This document shows positions 6,612 through 44,351 of a stretch of DNA of 47,168 nt, in pieces. The translations under genes and the position numbers were made by a program. Within the stretch, counting starts at the first letter, position 1; every line of letters begins with the position of its first letter. The DNA is from Acidobacteriota bacterium (GTDB lineage: Bacteria; Acidobacteriota; Thermoanaerobaculia; Thermoanaerobaculales; Sulfomarinibacteraceae). A model generated the notes under the pieces. That model made no database searches and was not told the DNA's origin. It was given only the letters and a program-made list of their open reading frames with translations. The stretch covers positions 1-47,168 of the forward strand of contig JAADFK010000199.1 in NCBI GenBank assembly GCA_013152925.1. The letters run 5' to 3'.

Positions 6612-6668
6612 TGCGGCAGCCCCTGGGGCCAGCGAGGGTCCCGTTGCGAGTGAGCGCCCATCGAGGCG

Positions 6669-6844
6669 CCTGGATGGGAACAGCGTGGTTCCTGAGGTGA
6701 AAACGAGCGCTCTATCCCTGCAAGGTCAAGAGAGGCAGGGAATCCCGCGGAGCTGCGCTGTGGTACGCCGCCCAAGGGAATCCGCAGCATGACCTGTTTG
6801 CCTGCAGGTCATCCGCGCAGGCAGGCGCCGGGATTGCAAGAGAA
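6669..6844. repeat. Dispersed palindromic repeat, copy A
   Basis: The segment starting CTGGATGGGAACAGCGTGG and ending CGCCGGGATTGCAAGAGA aligns along its length with 32711-32848. Shared landmarks are GGAACAGCGTGG, GCAAG.TCAAG, GGAAT.CCGCGGAG, GGTACGCCGC, GGGGATCCGCAG-like and CGCCGRGATTGCRAGA. Copy A carries an extra perfect hairpin, TGACCTG-TTTGCCTG-CAGGTCA, near 6790-6811. It lies between convergent genes (carboxylase and PilZ protein). Confidence 0.75.
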
Positions 6845-6863
6845 CACGGTTTCTGGAGGGGAG

Positions 6864-7601
6864 CTAGTTGACTCGCCGGGACAGGAGCTCGAGGGAGGCT
6901 TTCAGGCTGGGCCCGGAGAAGGTGACCGCAAATCCGGCCATCTCCTCCCTTCCGGGGCGCGTGTGGCGCACCACTCGGGCGGGCAGGTTCAGCGGTTCCT
7001 CGAGGTCGGGGTGGGAGATCACCGTCTTGACCGTGGCGCCCAGCATGGGCCGGACGGGAGACCGGAGCAGGAGTCCACTGGCGGAGATGTTGACGACCCC
7101 CTCGGCGGGAATCAGCGAGCCGTCGGGGTTCCGGACCCGGACCTCGAGCCCGGAGCTCGGCGGGCAGCGTTCCGGAACGTCGAGGAGTCTCCGGAGGGCC
7201 TCCTCGAGCTGGGTCTGCGGCACCCAGCGGGGGAGGACGGCATTGGCGCCGTGACCGACGAAGCGGGAGGCCCCGCTGAGCAGCTCGGGTATCGCCAGGA
7301 CCACCATGGAGCAGTGCCGGCTGGCACAGGTCGCGTGCCGCAGGCGCTGCAGGAAGTGCCGGAGGAGCAGGTGGGGGAGCGGGTAATTGCACACGACCAG
7401 CGAGTGCTCATGGAGACAAAGGTCCTTGAGGGCCAGCGTTGCGTTGTCAGCCGTCACCAGGGTGCATCCCAGCCCGCCGAGCGCGGTCTCGACGCGAAGG
7501 AGCGTCTGGGTATCGAGGGCCACCACCATCGCGCGGTGCAACCCCACGCCGCGAGCCCTGCCCGGCCTCCTCGCCGTTCCCATCCAGCCGAAAACCATCA
7601 T
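6864..7601 (-). CDS. PilZ-domain protein with a degenerate receiver-like N-terminus
   Basis: A 245-residue protein. Residues about 25-130 (MVVALDTQTLLRVETALGGL, LVVCNYPLP, NAVLPRWVP) follow the beta/alpha layout of a response-regulator receiver. No clear phosphoacceptor Asp is visible where one would be expected. Residues about 145-245 look like a PilZ domain (VVNISASGLLLRS, ARVVRHTRPG, GFAVTFSGPS), which in other proteins binds cyclic di-GMP. The usual RxxxR at the domain start is weak here, so binding is uncertain. A GGDEF protein occurs in the same window. Start choice is uncertain: no clear ribosome binding site precedes the ATG at 7601. Confidence 0.75.
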   Translation of the reverse strand: MMVFGWMGTARRPGRARGVGLHRAMVVALDTQTLLRVETALGGLGCTLVTADNATLALKDLCLHEHSLVVCNYPLPHLLLRHFLQRLRHATCASRHCSMVVLAIPELLSGASRFVGHGANAVLPRWVPQTQLEEALRRLLDVPERCPPSSGLEVRVRNPDGSLIPAEGVVNISASGLLLRSPVRPMLGATVKTVISHPDLEEPLNLPARVVRHTRPGREEMAGFAVTFSGPSLKASLELLSRRVN

Positions 7602-25745: not shown

Positions 25746-26503
25746 GAGCCGCTTCCGACGGCCCACTGGCCAGGCTGCCACGAGGTGCCTGGCTCGTCAC
25801 AGGCGCCAACGGTCTCCTGAGCTCCACCATTGCGGCCCGGCTCGACGCCGAGGGCCTGCCGTTGCTTCTCCACCTCCACCACCATACGAACCGCGTGACC
25901 GGCCTGAAGCAGCGTCATCCAGCCGTCGAGGCCGACCTCGCCACCGCGGCGGGCCGGGCCCGGCTGGTCCAGGCGGTCTCCCGCCTGGGGCTCCTCGGCG
26001 GCCTCCTCCTCGGCGCCTCCAACTTCCGGGCCACGCCCCCCAGCGGCGCTCCCGGGGTCTCCCCGATCCTCAGGCTGGACCTCGAAGCGCCCCTCGACCT
26101 GGCCCTGCGGCTGGCTCCTCGACTGGCCCCCGGCGGCCGGATCATCCTCTTCTCCGACGCCGGAGCCACCTTGGGGTGGCCCTCCTACCCGGTCTATCTC
26201 GCCGCCAAGGGAGGCCTCGAGGCGGCCACGCGCTCCCTGGCCCGCCGCCTGGGCCCGCGCCTCGTGGTCCTCTGCGCCGCGCCGGGCGCCCTGGAAGGTG
26301 CCCCTCCCCCACCGGACCCCGTCGTCCTCCACCTCACCCCACTGGCCCGCCTCGGCACGCCCGCCGAGGCCGCCGAGGCCATCCTCCGATTCGCCGCCCT
26401 CCCGCCATCCGTGTGCCACGGCGCCTGCCTCCCCATCGATGGCGGCCGCCGCCTGACCCCTGATCTTCCGCCGGCGGACTGGACGCCGGTTGTGTTCCCG
26501 TGA
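25739..26503 (+). CDS. Short-chain dehydrogenase/reductase (pteridine-reductase-like)
   Basis: A 254-residue Rossmann-fold SDR. The cofactor loop is TGANGLLSSTIAARL, where the classical TGxxxGIG is altered. The active-site YxxxK is YLAAKGGLEAATRSLARRL, preceded by FSDAG at the Ser position. LPIDGGR is the family's closing motif. These features and HHHTNR after strand 2 are reminiscent of FolM/pteridine reductases, but the substrate is not certain. The TTG start at 25739 has GGAGG four bases upstream, inside the end of the exonuclease gene. Confidence 0.85.
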   Translation: MVGAASDGPLARLPRGAWLVTGANGLLSSTIAARLDAEGLPLLLHLHHHTNRVTGLKQRHPAVEADLATAAGRARLVQAVSRLGLLGGLLLGASNFRATPPSGAPGVSPILRLDLEAPLDLALRLAPRLAPGGRIILFSDAGATLGWPSYPVYLAAKGGLEAATRSLARRLGPRLVVLCAAPGALEGAPPPPDPVVLHLTPLARLGTPAEAAEAILRFAALPPSVCHGACLPIDGGRRLTPDLPPADWTPVVFP

Positions 26504-26736
26504 GATCCCTCCACTCCGCGACCCTCCGGGTCGCTCCGGTCGGGATGACAAAAGCAGGCGTGCCCGCAGCGCTTCACGGGGATGACATTGACATTCGGCT
26601 GCGCGAGCGGGAGCTCGCTGGCTGATGGGGGCTGACTCGGCCATTGTTTGGAGGCTTCAGGGTGCCGGCTTCGTTGGAGAGATCCCTCCGCTCCGGTCGG
26701 GATGACATTCGGCTGCGCGAGCGGGAGCTCGCTGCC
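26504..26736. repeat. Second block of dispersed palindromic repeats and a 31-bp direct repeat
   Basis: Between the SDR stop and the acyl-CoA dehydrogenase stop (convergent) are two tails of the 59-1013 family: 26500-26550 with inner hairpin GCGACCC-TCC-GGGTCGC at 26518-26534, and a shorter one at about 26680-26706. A 31-bp sequence beginning GACATTCGGCTGCGCGAGCG is present identically at 26590-26620 and 26704-26734. No gene is supported. Confidence 0.85.
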
Positions 26737-32666: not shown

Positions 32667-32710
32667 GCCGTTCCCGACGAAACAGGCTCGCGTGCTCCCA
32701 TACCAGGAAA

Positions 32711-32848
32711 CTGGATCGGAACAGCGTGGCTCCCGGGGCAGAAGCGAGCGGTTTTTCTGCAAGATCAAGGAAGTCCAGGAATTCCGCGGAGGCGTAACCC
32801 GGTACGCCGCACGAGGGGATCCGCAGCCTGACGCCGAGATTGCGAGAA
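32711..32848. repeat. Dispersed palindromic repeat, copy B
   Basis: Aligns with 6669-6844. The core 32755-32844 is an imperfect palindrome about its centre: GGCGTA-ACCCGG-TACGCC forms the apex (32791-32808), and the ends read TTCTGCAAGATC and GATTGCGAGAA. It lies 45 bp after the EamA stop and ends about 27 bp before a TACAAT -10-like hexamer (32875-32880) of the next gene. Confidence 0.8.
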
Positions 32849-32932
32849 GGCGCCGTATTGGGCCGGAGCTGGCGTACAATTCCTGTGATCCGGCGCAGCA
32901 CCGCCGCGCCGCCTGAGATCCTGGGAGGCAGC

Positions 32933-39339: not shown

Positions 39340-39373
39340 CTGCCGCCGGCTGGCTCGGCTCTTGTTCTCATCC

Positions 39374-39555
39374 GGCCCGGGGTCTTCGGGAGACTTTCGT
39401 CGCGAGACCGGGGAGTCGCCCGTCAGTGTGGTGTTGAGGCCAAGGCGCCGCCGAGGCGTACTCCCTGTACGCCGCAGGCGCCGCCGCCGACTGAAACGCC
39501 GCAATGACGGGCGAATCCCCGGTCGCAGCAGAAAGTCTCCCGAAGACCCCGGGCC
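39374..39555. repeat. 182-bp palindromic element between convergent genes
   Basis: The first 25 bases (GGCCCGGGGTCTTCGGGAGA then CTTTC) are the exact reverse complement of the last 25. Further matching blocks (CCGGGGA, TCGCCCGTCA) continue inward to the apex GGCGTAC-TCCCT-GTACGCC at 39455-39473, the exact centre. The right end touches the lptE stop codon. It may be a mobile palindrome that also terminates both transcripts. Confidence 0.9.
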
Positions 39556-40100
39556 TAGAAGCCCTCGAGAATCGTGCTCACCAGGGAGCGGGCATACTCC
39601 TCAGAGAGCACGTCCATCGCCTGAGTCTGGCGGTCGAAATAGTCGGCTGCCCGGGGGTCCACCACGTAGGATGTCCTCCTGGAAAACGACTTGTCCTGCC
39701 ACAGCAGCTTGGGTTTTTCCCCACGAACGTCGTACAGCGCCATGGAGGCGATCAGCGTCATCTGGTACTTGCTGGCGCGCCCGGTTTCATCGAACTGAAC
39801 CGGCGACACGACCACCGCCGTGATCCGTCCCTCCAGGGAAAGGTCGGCCTTCTTTTTGTCGTCGACCAGTTGAAAACGGCGGCGGCGCACCCATTCCCTG
39901 GTGACCGCCTCCGTCAGGCGCTGACCCATGTCCGACCACTGGGTCTGGTTGCTGAATGTGGAAACGTACAGCGTCTGGAGCTCGGGCCCGAGGTAGCTCC
40001 CCGAGGTCCCCACGAGGTGGTAGCCGCAGGCGCTGGAAAGGACGATCATGAGAAACAGCAGCAACCCAACACCGAGGTACGAACCGTCGTGCTCATCCAT
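39555..40100 (-). CDS. lptE: LPS-assembly lipoprotein LptE
   Basis: A 181-residue outer-membrane lipoprotein that plugs the LptD translocon and helps insert LPS. The signal peptide (LGVGLLLFLMIVL) ends in lipobox SSAC with Cys25, then GYHLVGTSGSYLGPELQTLY, the usual LptE beginning. TFSNQTQWSDMGQRLTEAVT and ADLSLEGRITAVVVSPV are typical of the beta/alpha fold. The ATG at 40100 has TAGTGT nine bases upstream. No lptD is in the window. Confidence 0.9.
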   Translation of the reverse strand: MDEHDGSYLGVGLLLFLMIVLSSACGYHLVGTSGSYLGPELQTLYVSTFSNQTQWSDMGQRLTEAVTREWVRRRRFQLVDDKKKADLSLEGRITAVVVSPVQFDETGRASKYQMTLIASMALYDVRGEKPKLLWQDKSFSRRTSYVVDPRAADYFDRQTQAMDVLSEEYARSLVSTILEGF

Positions 40101-43642: not shown

Positions 43643-44351
43643 TGAGGTTGTTCCGTTGTGCCCCGGCGTTGGAGGTAGCCAGCATGGAGTGCGGGTTTCG
43701 GCCCGCATCCTGTTGAGCCACAATGAGATGAAGATGAAAACGAACAACGCCCTCTAAGGACTGAAGTCCGCGCTCCGGGGCGGCGCCGTGACGGCGTGCA
43801 TTGAGCTCGCACCTTGGGGCGAGGCGCTCATCGGCGTCCCCGTATCTTCCGCTGTCGCGAACGTTTGCAGCGGCGCAACAACCTCACCCGGGAACAGCGG
43901 TTCGAACCAATCCGGCTTTGCCGCGCCGCCGGCGCGCCGCCTCTTTCCTCTGCGTTCCCGGCGATCCCTGCGCGAAACATTTCCGGGTGGGGGCGGAGAG
44001 AAGAGAGTTTCGCGCAGAGAACGCAGAGAACGCGGAGAACGGAGAATGTATTCGTGTGGCTTTTTCCCCCTCAGCGCGAACTTCCCGGCCCAGCGCTGTA
44101 CCCAGAGGCTGCTGCGCTGCGCCCAAGCTTCGGGAGTGTCCGGGATGGAGCGCGGGCTTGAGCCCACATCGTGGTGAGCCACGGTGGGATGCAAGCGAAT
44201 GACGGTTTATGCGGACTGAAGTCCGCGCTCCGGGGCGGCGCCGTGACGGCGTGCATTGAGCTCGCACCTTGGGGCGAGGCGCTCATCGGCGTCACCCTAT
44301 CTCCCGCTATCACGAACCTCCACCGGTCGCGCTGGAGAGCTCTCGGCTTCC
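43643..44351. repeat. Duplicated intergenic repeat region
   Basis: 709 bp without a credible gene. An 81-bp sequence beginning GGACTGAAGTCCGCGCTCCG is identical at 43758-43838 and 44213-44293. Each copy is preceded by a related unit (GGAGYGCGGGYTT, then CCACATC or CCGCATC, then TGAGCCAC) at 43686 and 44147. Between the copies, at about 43940-44060, is an inverted repeat of the type TTTCGCGCAGAGAACGCAGA with its opposite arm (CTCTGCGTTCCCGGCGATCC then CTGCGCGAAAC). The ORF-track proteins here are translations of these repeats. Confidence 0.85.

Follow-up and report, generated by a model that had tools for sequence, protein, structure and literature searches.

The two repeats named here copy A (6654-6864) and copy B (32694-32869) of the window, by which we mean the whole 47,168-nucleotide stretch analyzed, are very probably decayed members of a 176-bp MITE family, moved in trans by an ISNCY-type transposase into TAGCYN sites. 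They represent a new family of a well-known kind of element: short (176 bp), noncoding and present in many dispersed copies, with terminal inverted repeats (GTTCCCRTCCRGAAAC), a 6-bp target site duplication and ends common to a transposase-coding autonomous element in a relative. Alignment confirmed the similarity that the original prediction had seen between 6669-6844 and 32711-32848, and both of these intervals lie within the true elements. The features of the two copies and their surroundings are as follows.

6654..6864, + strand: MITE copy A, a 211-bp subtype with a side block; E value 2e-15 in the search with copy B, 126 bits against the family model
6793..6825, + strand: 33-nt hairpin block that copy A has in addition; the L023 and L026 copies carry a similar one in the same place
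6648..6653, no strand: left flank hexamer of copy A, GAGTGA, a decayed duplication matching the right flank at 3/6 positions
6865..6870, no strand: right flank hexamer of copy A, TAGTTG, from the flank comparison
32694..32869, + strand: MITE copy B, 176 bp, with sharp ends in the alignment of 28 genome copies and a model match of 177 bits; its degenerate terminal repeats read GCTCCCATACC... and ...GGGCCGGAGC
32694..32722, + strand: 5′ terminal hairpin of copy B, the terminal repeat followed by its own inverse, from the consensus fold
32730..32869, + strand: long imperfect hairpin of copy B, pairing the internal terminal-repeat copy with the 3′ terminal repeat, from the consensus fold and compensatory pairs
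32784..32811, + strand: apex module of copy B, CCGCGGAGGCGTAACCCGGTACGCCGCA, common to the 182-bp family
32688..32693, no strand: left target duplication of copy B, TCGCGT, a 5/6 match to the right one; the six-position duplication is family-wide
32870..32875, no strand: right target duplication of copy B, TGGCGT, from the flank comparison
32875..32880, + strand: hexamer TACAAT, resembling a -10 box and sharing its first base with the end of the right duplication of copy B; it lies upstream of the next gene
39448..39476, + strand: apex of the 182-bp palindrome, related to that of copies A and B, in an element that is otherwise unrelated to them

Copies A and B align at 77% over the first 47 bases, and A carries the 33-nt insert at 6793-6825, a side-block subtype shared by the L023 and L026 copies. 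Their membership of a dispersed palindromic repeat family, as predicted, holds far beyond chance. With copy B as query we found 34 other places in its own genome at E ≤ 1 (31 at E < 1e-7), and a genome search with a family model recovered about 50 copies with E values below 1e-9 as well as partial copies with weaker scores. The family is present in 10 of the 19 same-family genomes searched, weakly present in one other genome of the same class and matched in one more family of the phylum (E value 4e-17); the named records containing it are Acidobacteriota metagenome-assembled genomes. A strict pattern scan of the genome collection returned three loci only, the pattern being too strict for judging wider spread. 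Neither the element nor its end had a match in the plasmids, phages and viral contigs searched.

When turned one way, the copies share the layout GTTCCCATCCAGGAACCTGGATGGGAAC-GGCGTGG-CTCCCGAGGCAGAAACG...apex...CGTTTCTGGACGGGAAC over 176 bp with sharp ends, and their termini in alignments read GTTCCCRTCC.../...GGAYGGGAAC. In the fold of the consensus (-89.6 kcal/mol, z -7.6), a terminal hairpin of 28 bp is separated by a short spacer from a single long hairpin. Each element thus laid out holds three copies of the terminal repeat, the internal one pairing with the 3′ terminal repeat in the long hairpin. A subtype of 244-246 bp in G006 has about 70 nt of small hairpins inside the apex (L062:1326-1571, L065:1307-1550 and L184), and solo 28-bp hairpins consist of two terminal repeats back to back (L155:359-386, L158, L159:342-369 and L202). 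Some of the solos have target-like flanks, the one in L202 lying between TAGTCA and TAGTCT; they are either the smallest mobile units of the family or what is left of elements that lost the long hairpin.

Comparing the two flanks copy by copy, we observed an excess of direct matching only in the length-8 register (z 8.2), and none for inverted matching or the other tested lengths. The first reading, an 8-bp duplication, was dropped when the per-position test placed the excess at positions 2-7 only (z 3.6, 3.2, 4.4, 4.4, 4.5 and 6.6); positions 1 and 8 show no copy-specific matching and are the fixed G and C of the element ends. As copy-specific matching is confined to six positions, the duplication is 6 bp long. 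The duplicated target is TAGCYN, within a wider target consensus of about YTAGCYNR, and several copies have perfect duplications (e.g. L012, L052, L053 and L062). CTAG is extremely rare, with 3 occurrences in the 47-kb window, and YTAGCYNR targets are therefore few.

HUH transposons leave no target duplication. This bears directly on the idea that the repeats are REP-like elements moved by a RAYT (Y1/HUH) transposase, which we regard as extremely improbable. The present elements resemble REP elements in being palindromic and intergenic, some copies are cut down to the 28-bp hairpin alone, and the genome holds three Y1_Tnp matches. REP elements, however, depend on HUH chemistry, whereas the MITE has a DDE partner to which the matching ends belong and copy-specific 6-bp duplications, which refute RAYT for the main family; the Y1_Tnp regions L171 and L172 also lack an element cluster, bar one copy about 5 kb off. 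The two Y1 (RAYT-like) transposase genes themselves lie at L171:1429-2400 and L172:96-1307 and have no obvious link to the MITE.

The DDE element in question, located among the DDE_Tnp_1 matches in six relatives, is a 1697-bp insertion sequence of G011 (L226:450-2146). Its ends, GTTCCCATCCAGGAA and TTTCCGGATGGGAAC, are the same as those of the MITE, and it is bordered on both sides by a perfect GGGCTA duplication, which is TAGCCC on the other strand and thus the same target. The insertion sequence codes for an intact DDE transposase of 453 aa, which scores 410 bits against the NCBIfam ISNCY model NF033593 (cut-off 325). Ends, duplication and target together tie the MITE to the ISNCY transposase group, and the G011 insertion sequence is likely its autonomous partner. 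Only some 15-16 terminal bases are shared between the two, so the MITE is no simple deletion derivative of this insertion sequence. We found no autonomous copy in the own genome, where the sites listed by an end-pattern search include no two ends spaced by about 1.7 kb, and the other DDE_Tnp_1 and rve loci fetched had no paired ends. Long-span candidates in L045 and L057 were rejected for having no matching duplication.

On plasmids, the nearest named relatives are ISRle10 and ISRm17, the transposase of ISRle10 being 41% identical to that of G011. An inverted-repeat search gave these elements the ends GTGCCCRTCCATAAACRG with TAGTCTA duplications, and the 3′ end of the MITE agrees with them at 15-16 of the 21 end bases. 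The systems are alike in these ends, in a TAG-containing duplication and in the NF033593 equivalog transposase; they differ in that ISRle10 and ISRm17 (Rhizobium and Sinorhizobium) are autonomous, belong to Alphaproteobacteria and duplicate about 7 bp, while the MITE is a 176-bp noncoding element that duplicates 6 bp. The literature searched held no link between a MITE and the ISNCY (NF033593) group. The IS1202 family, formerly placed in ISNCY and filed there in ISfinder, resembles the partner in the length of its DDE transposases (441-457 aa in members from Acinetobacter), but its ends are 5′-TGT...ACA-3′ and its duplications measure 3-5, over 15 or 0 bp (PMC10132070); with ends of GTTCCC...GGGAAC and a 6-bp duplication, the present elements fall outside it. 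The Chunjie MITE of Geobacter uraniireducens is noncoding, 178-235 bp long and mostly intergenic, occurs in tens of full and partial copies and has conserved terminal repeats and direct repeats (PMC10969869). By this description it is like the present MITE, and no common transposon is shown.

Gene calling by codon usage, trained on the window, placed all 32 copies tested between genes. The flanking genes follow no fixed orientation (9 ++, 8 --, 7 -+ and 6 +-), and six copies directly adjoin the stop codon of a gene lying 3′ of them; copy A is among these, its last base plus TA making up the stop codon of gene 6864-7529 on the minus strand. Hexamers resembling -10 boxes start at the outer two duplication bases in roughly 12 of the 49 copies, 8 times on the left and 4 times on the right, compared with about 0-3 per side at other registers, and this register suggests a preference of the insertions for -10 boxes. 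At copy B, TACAAT at 32875-32880 may serve as the promoter of the next gene, judging from its sequence and position. The neighbors of this copy, an "EamA-like transporter" and a "peptidase-like" gene, the latter being the one downstream of TACAAT, are named by inspection only. The same pair of flanking genes is kept in G007 with the element absent and the gap about 170 bp shorter, in an empty-site comparison that runs across genera with a loose intergenic alignment.

The original prediction also had copy B fold about its apex. The arms are there, GGCGTA (32791-32796) and TACGCC (32803-32808) around ACCCGG, but the fold is no better than that of shuffled sequences (z 0.13, and -0.36 for the full element). 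With z near 0 against -7.6 for the consensus and down to -9.5 for young copies, copy B is a decayed copy, and the hairpin belongs to the consensus and to the young copies in relatives. The copies in G011, G012, G019, G006 and G002 have fold z values of about -6 to -9.5 and differ by 12-23% from the consensus of the own genome, where the mean is -2.1. In its own genome the family thus gives the impression of being old and is probably inactive, and in G011, G012, G006 and G002 it looks younger. Between lineages, 17 pairs were altered on both sides, compared with 10.1 ± 2.1 in shuffled and 4-13 in slid controls, and doubly changed cells numbered 44 compared with 16.4 in shuffles; the shuffle control may be inflated by relatedness, and the slid control, in which 33-50% of cells were paired compared with 88% in the actual alignment, agrees in direction. 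These compensatory changes, along with the weak folds in the own genome, indicate that the hairpin is kept in source elements while the resident copies are decaying.

A consensus of two stable hairpins, with changes that compensate each other from lineage to lineage, in tested copies that are all intergenic, could also point to functional structured RNAs or transcription terminators under site-by-site selection. We consider this highly unlikely. The copies of the own genome have lost much of their fold, copy B nearly all of it, and they have no fixed orientation to the neighboring genes; the window gave no meaningful Rfam match even at E values up to 10, and the 6-bp target duplications and the ends shared with a transposon argue for mobility.

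The apex connects these MITEs to the 182-bp palindrome of the window. The consensus of nine copies of the latter shares CCGC-GAGGCGTACTC-GGTACGCCGCA with the MITE at 26 of 28 nt, and the shared-apex score of 41 exceeds the maximum of 30 reached in 2000 hairpin-preserving shuffles; the equivalent apex that had been predicted is thus real. The similar right flank claimed along with it (CTGAAACGCCGCAATGACGG against CTGACGCCGAGATTGCGAGA) is absent, as the best local alignment ends at the 28-nt apex. Across 297 genomes of the phylum, the exact apex pattern matched only the 182-bp copy itself. The proposal of a three-member superfamily with TACGCCGC as its landmark is supported by the shared apex and not by the ends, the core and the flank type: A and B end in GTTCCC...GGGAAC with 6-bp direct repeats, whereas the 182-bp family has another core, other ends and inverted-repeat flanks (on average 12.7 of 18 positions complementary, compared with 8.6 ± 0.8 in shuffles). 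By sequence, TACGCCGC marks the shared apex module only and not whole elements. Descent of A, B and the 182-bp element from one ancestor would be compatible with A and B being MITEs, and the near-identity of the apex speaks for it; given that nothing is alike outside the apex and that an exchange of apex modules between two palindromes accounts for the likeness equally well, we hold it to be possible but doubtful.

The 182-bp family itself numbers about 25 copies with a conserved core of about 140 bp, surrounded by copy-specific inverted repeats of 18-20 bp that are often near perfect. Its loci include 39365-39557 of the window and L031-L039, several copies lying 240-275 bp apart on one contig. 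The window copy is situated between two convergent genes, and terminator hairpins might offer, in their loops, the sites where the family inserts. The window contains further repeats: arrays of GTCATTCCGACCGGAGCG-type repeats at 1-970, found in inverted orientation at 26496-26550, and a 130-bp direct repeat, 88% identical, at 43733-43862 and 44188-44317, 455 bp apart and between called genes.

Under the preferred explanation, movement of the MITEs in trans by an ISNCY-type transposase, the enzyme of G011, or a relative of it lost from or undetected in the own genome, would bind the terminal repeats of the MITE, excise or copy the element and then insert it at TAGCYN sites. The stop codon TAG is part of the target, and the opposite strand reads GCTA, which also occurs in GCTANAAT -10 boxes; this may explain why the copies land between genes, in many cases directly at a stop codon or immediately upstream of a -10 box. 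A near-perfect hairpin would persist in the source elements, and the copies would drift once inserted. The folded hairpin could in addition be part of the transposition substrate itself or recruit a host factor via its apex; the two-hairpin layout, the three terminal repeats, the compensatory changes, the 28-bp solos with duplications and the shared apex all lead to this idea, which we think unlikely; if true, it would set the element apart from what is usual among DDE insertion sequences.

Movement by an ISNCY-type transposase accounts for about 50 intergenic repeats in one genome and for similar ones across an uncultured Acidobacteriota family, and it connects these repeats with one specific transposase, for which the ends and a target rule (TAGCYN with a 6-bp duplication) are defined. 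This rule may account for the location of the MITEs at gene ends and promoters without disruption of genes.
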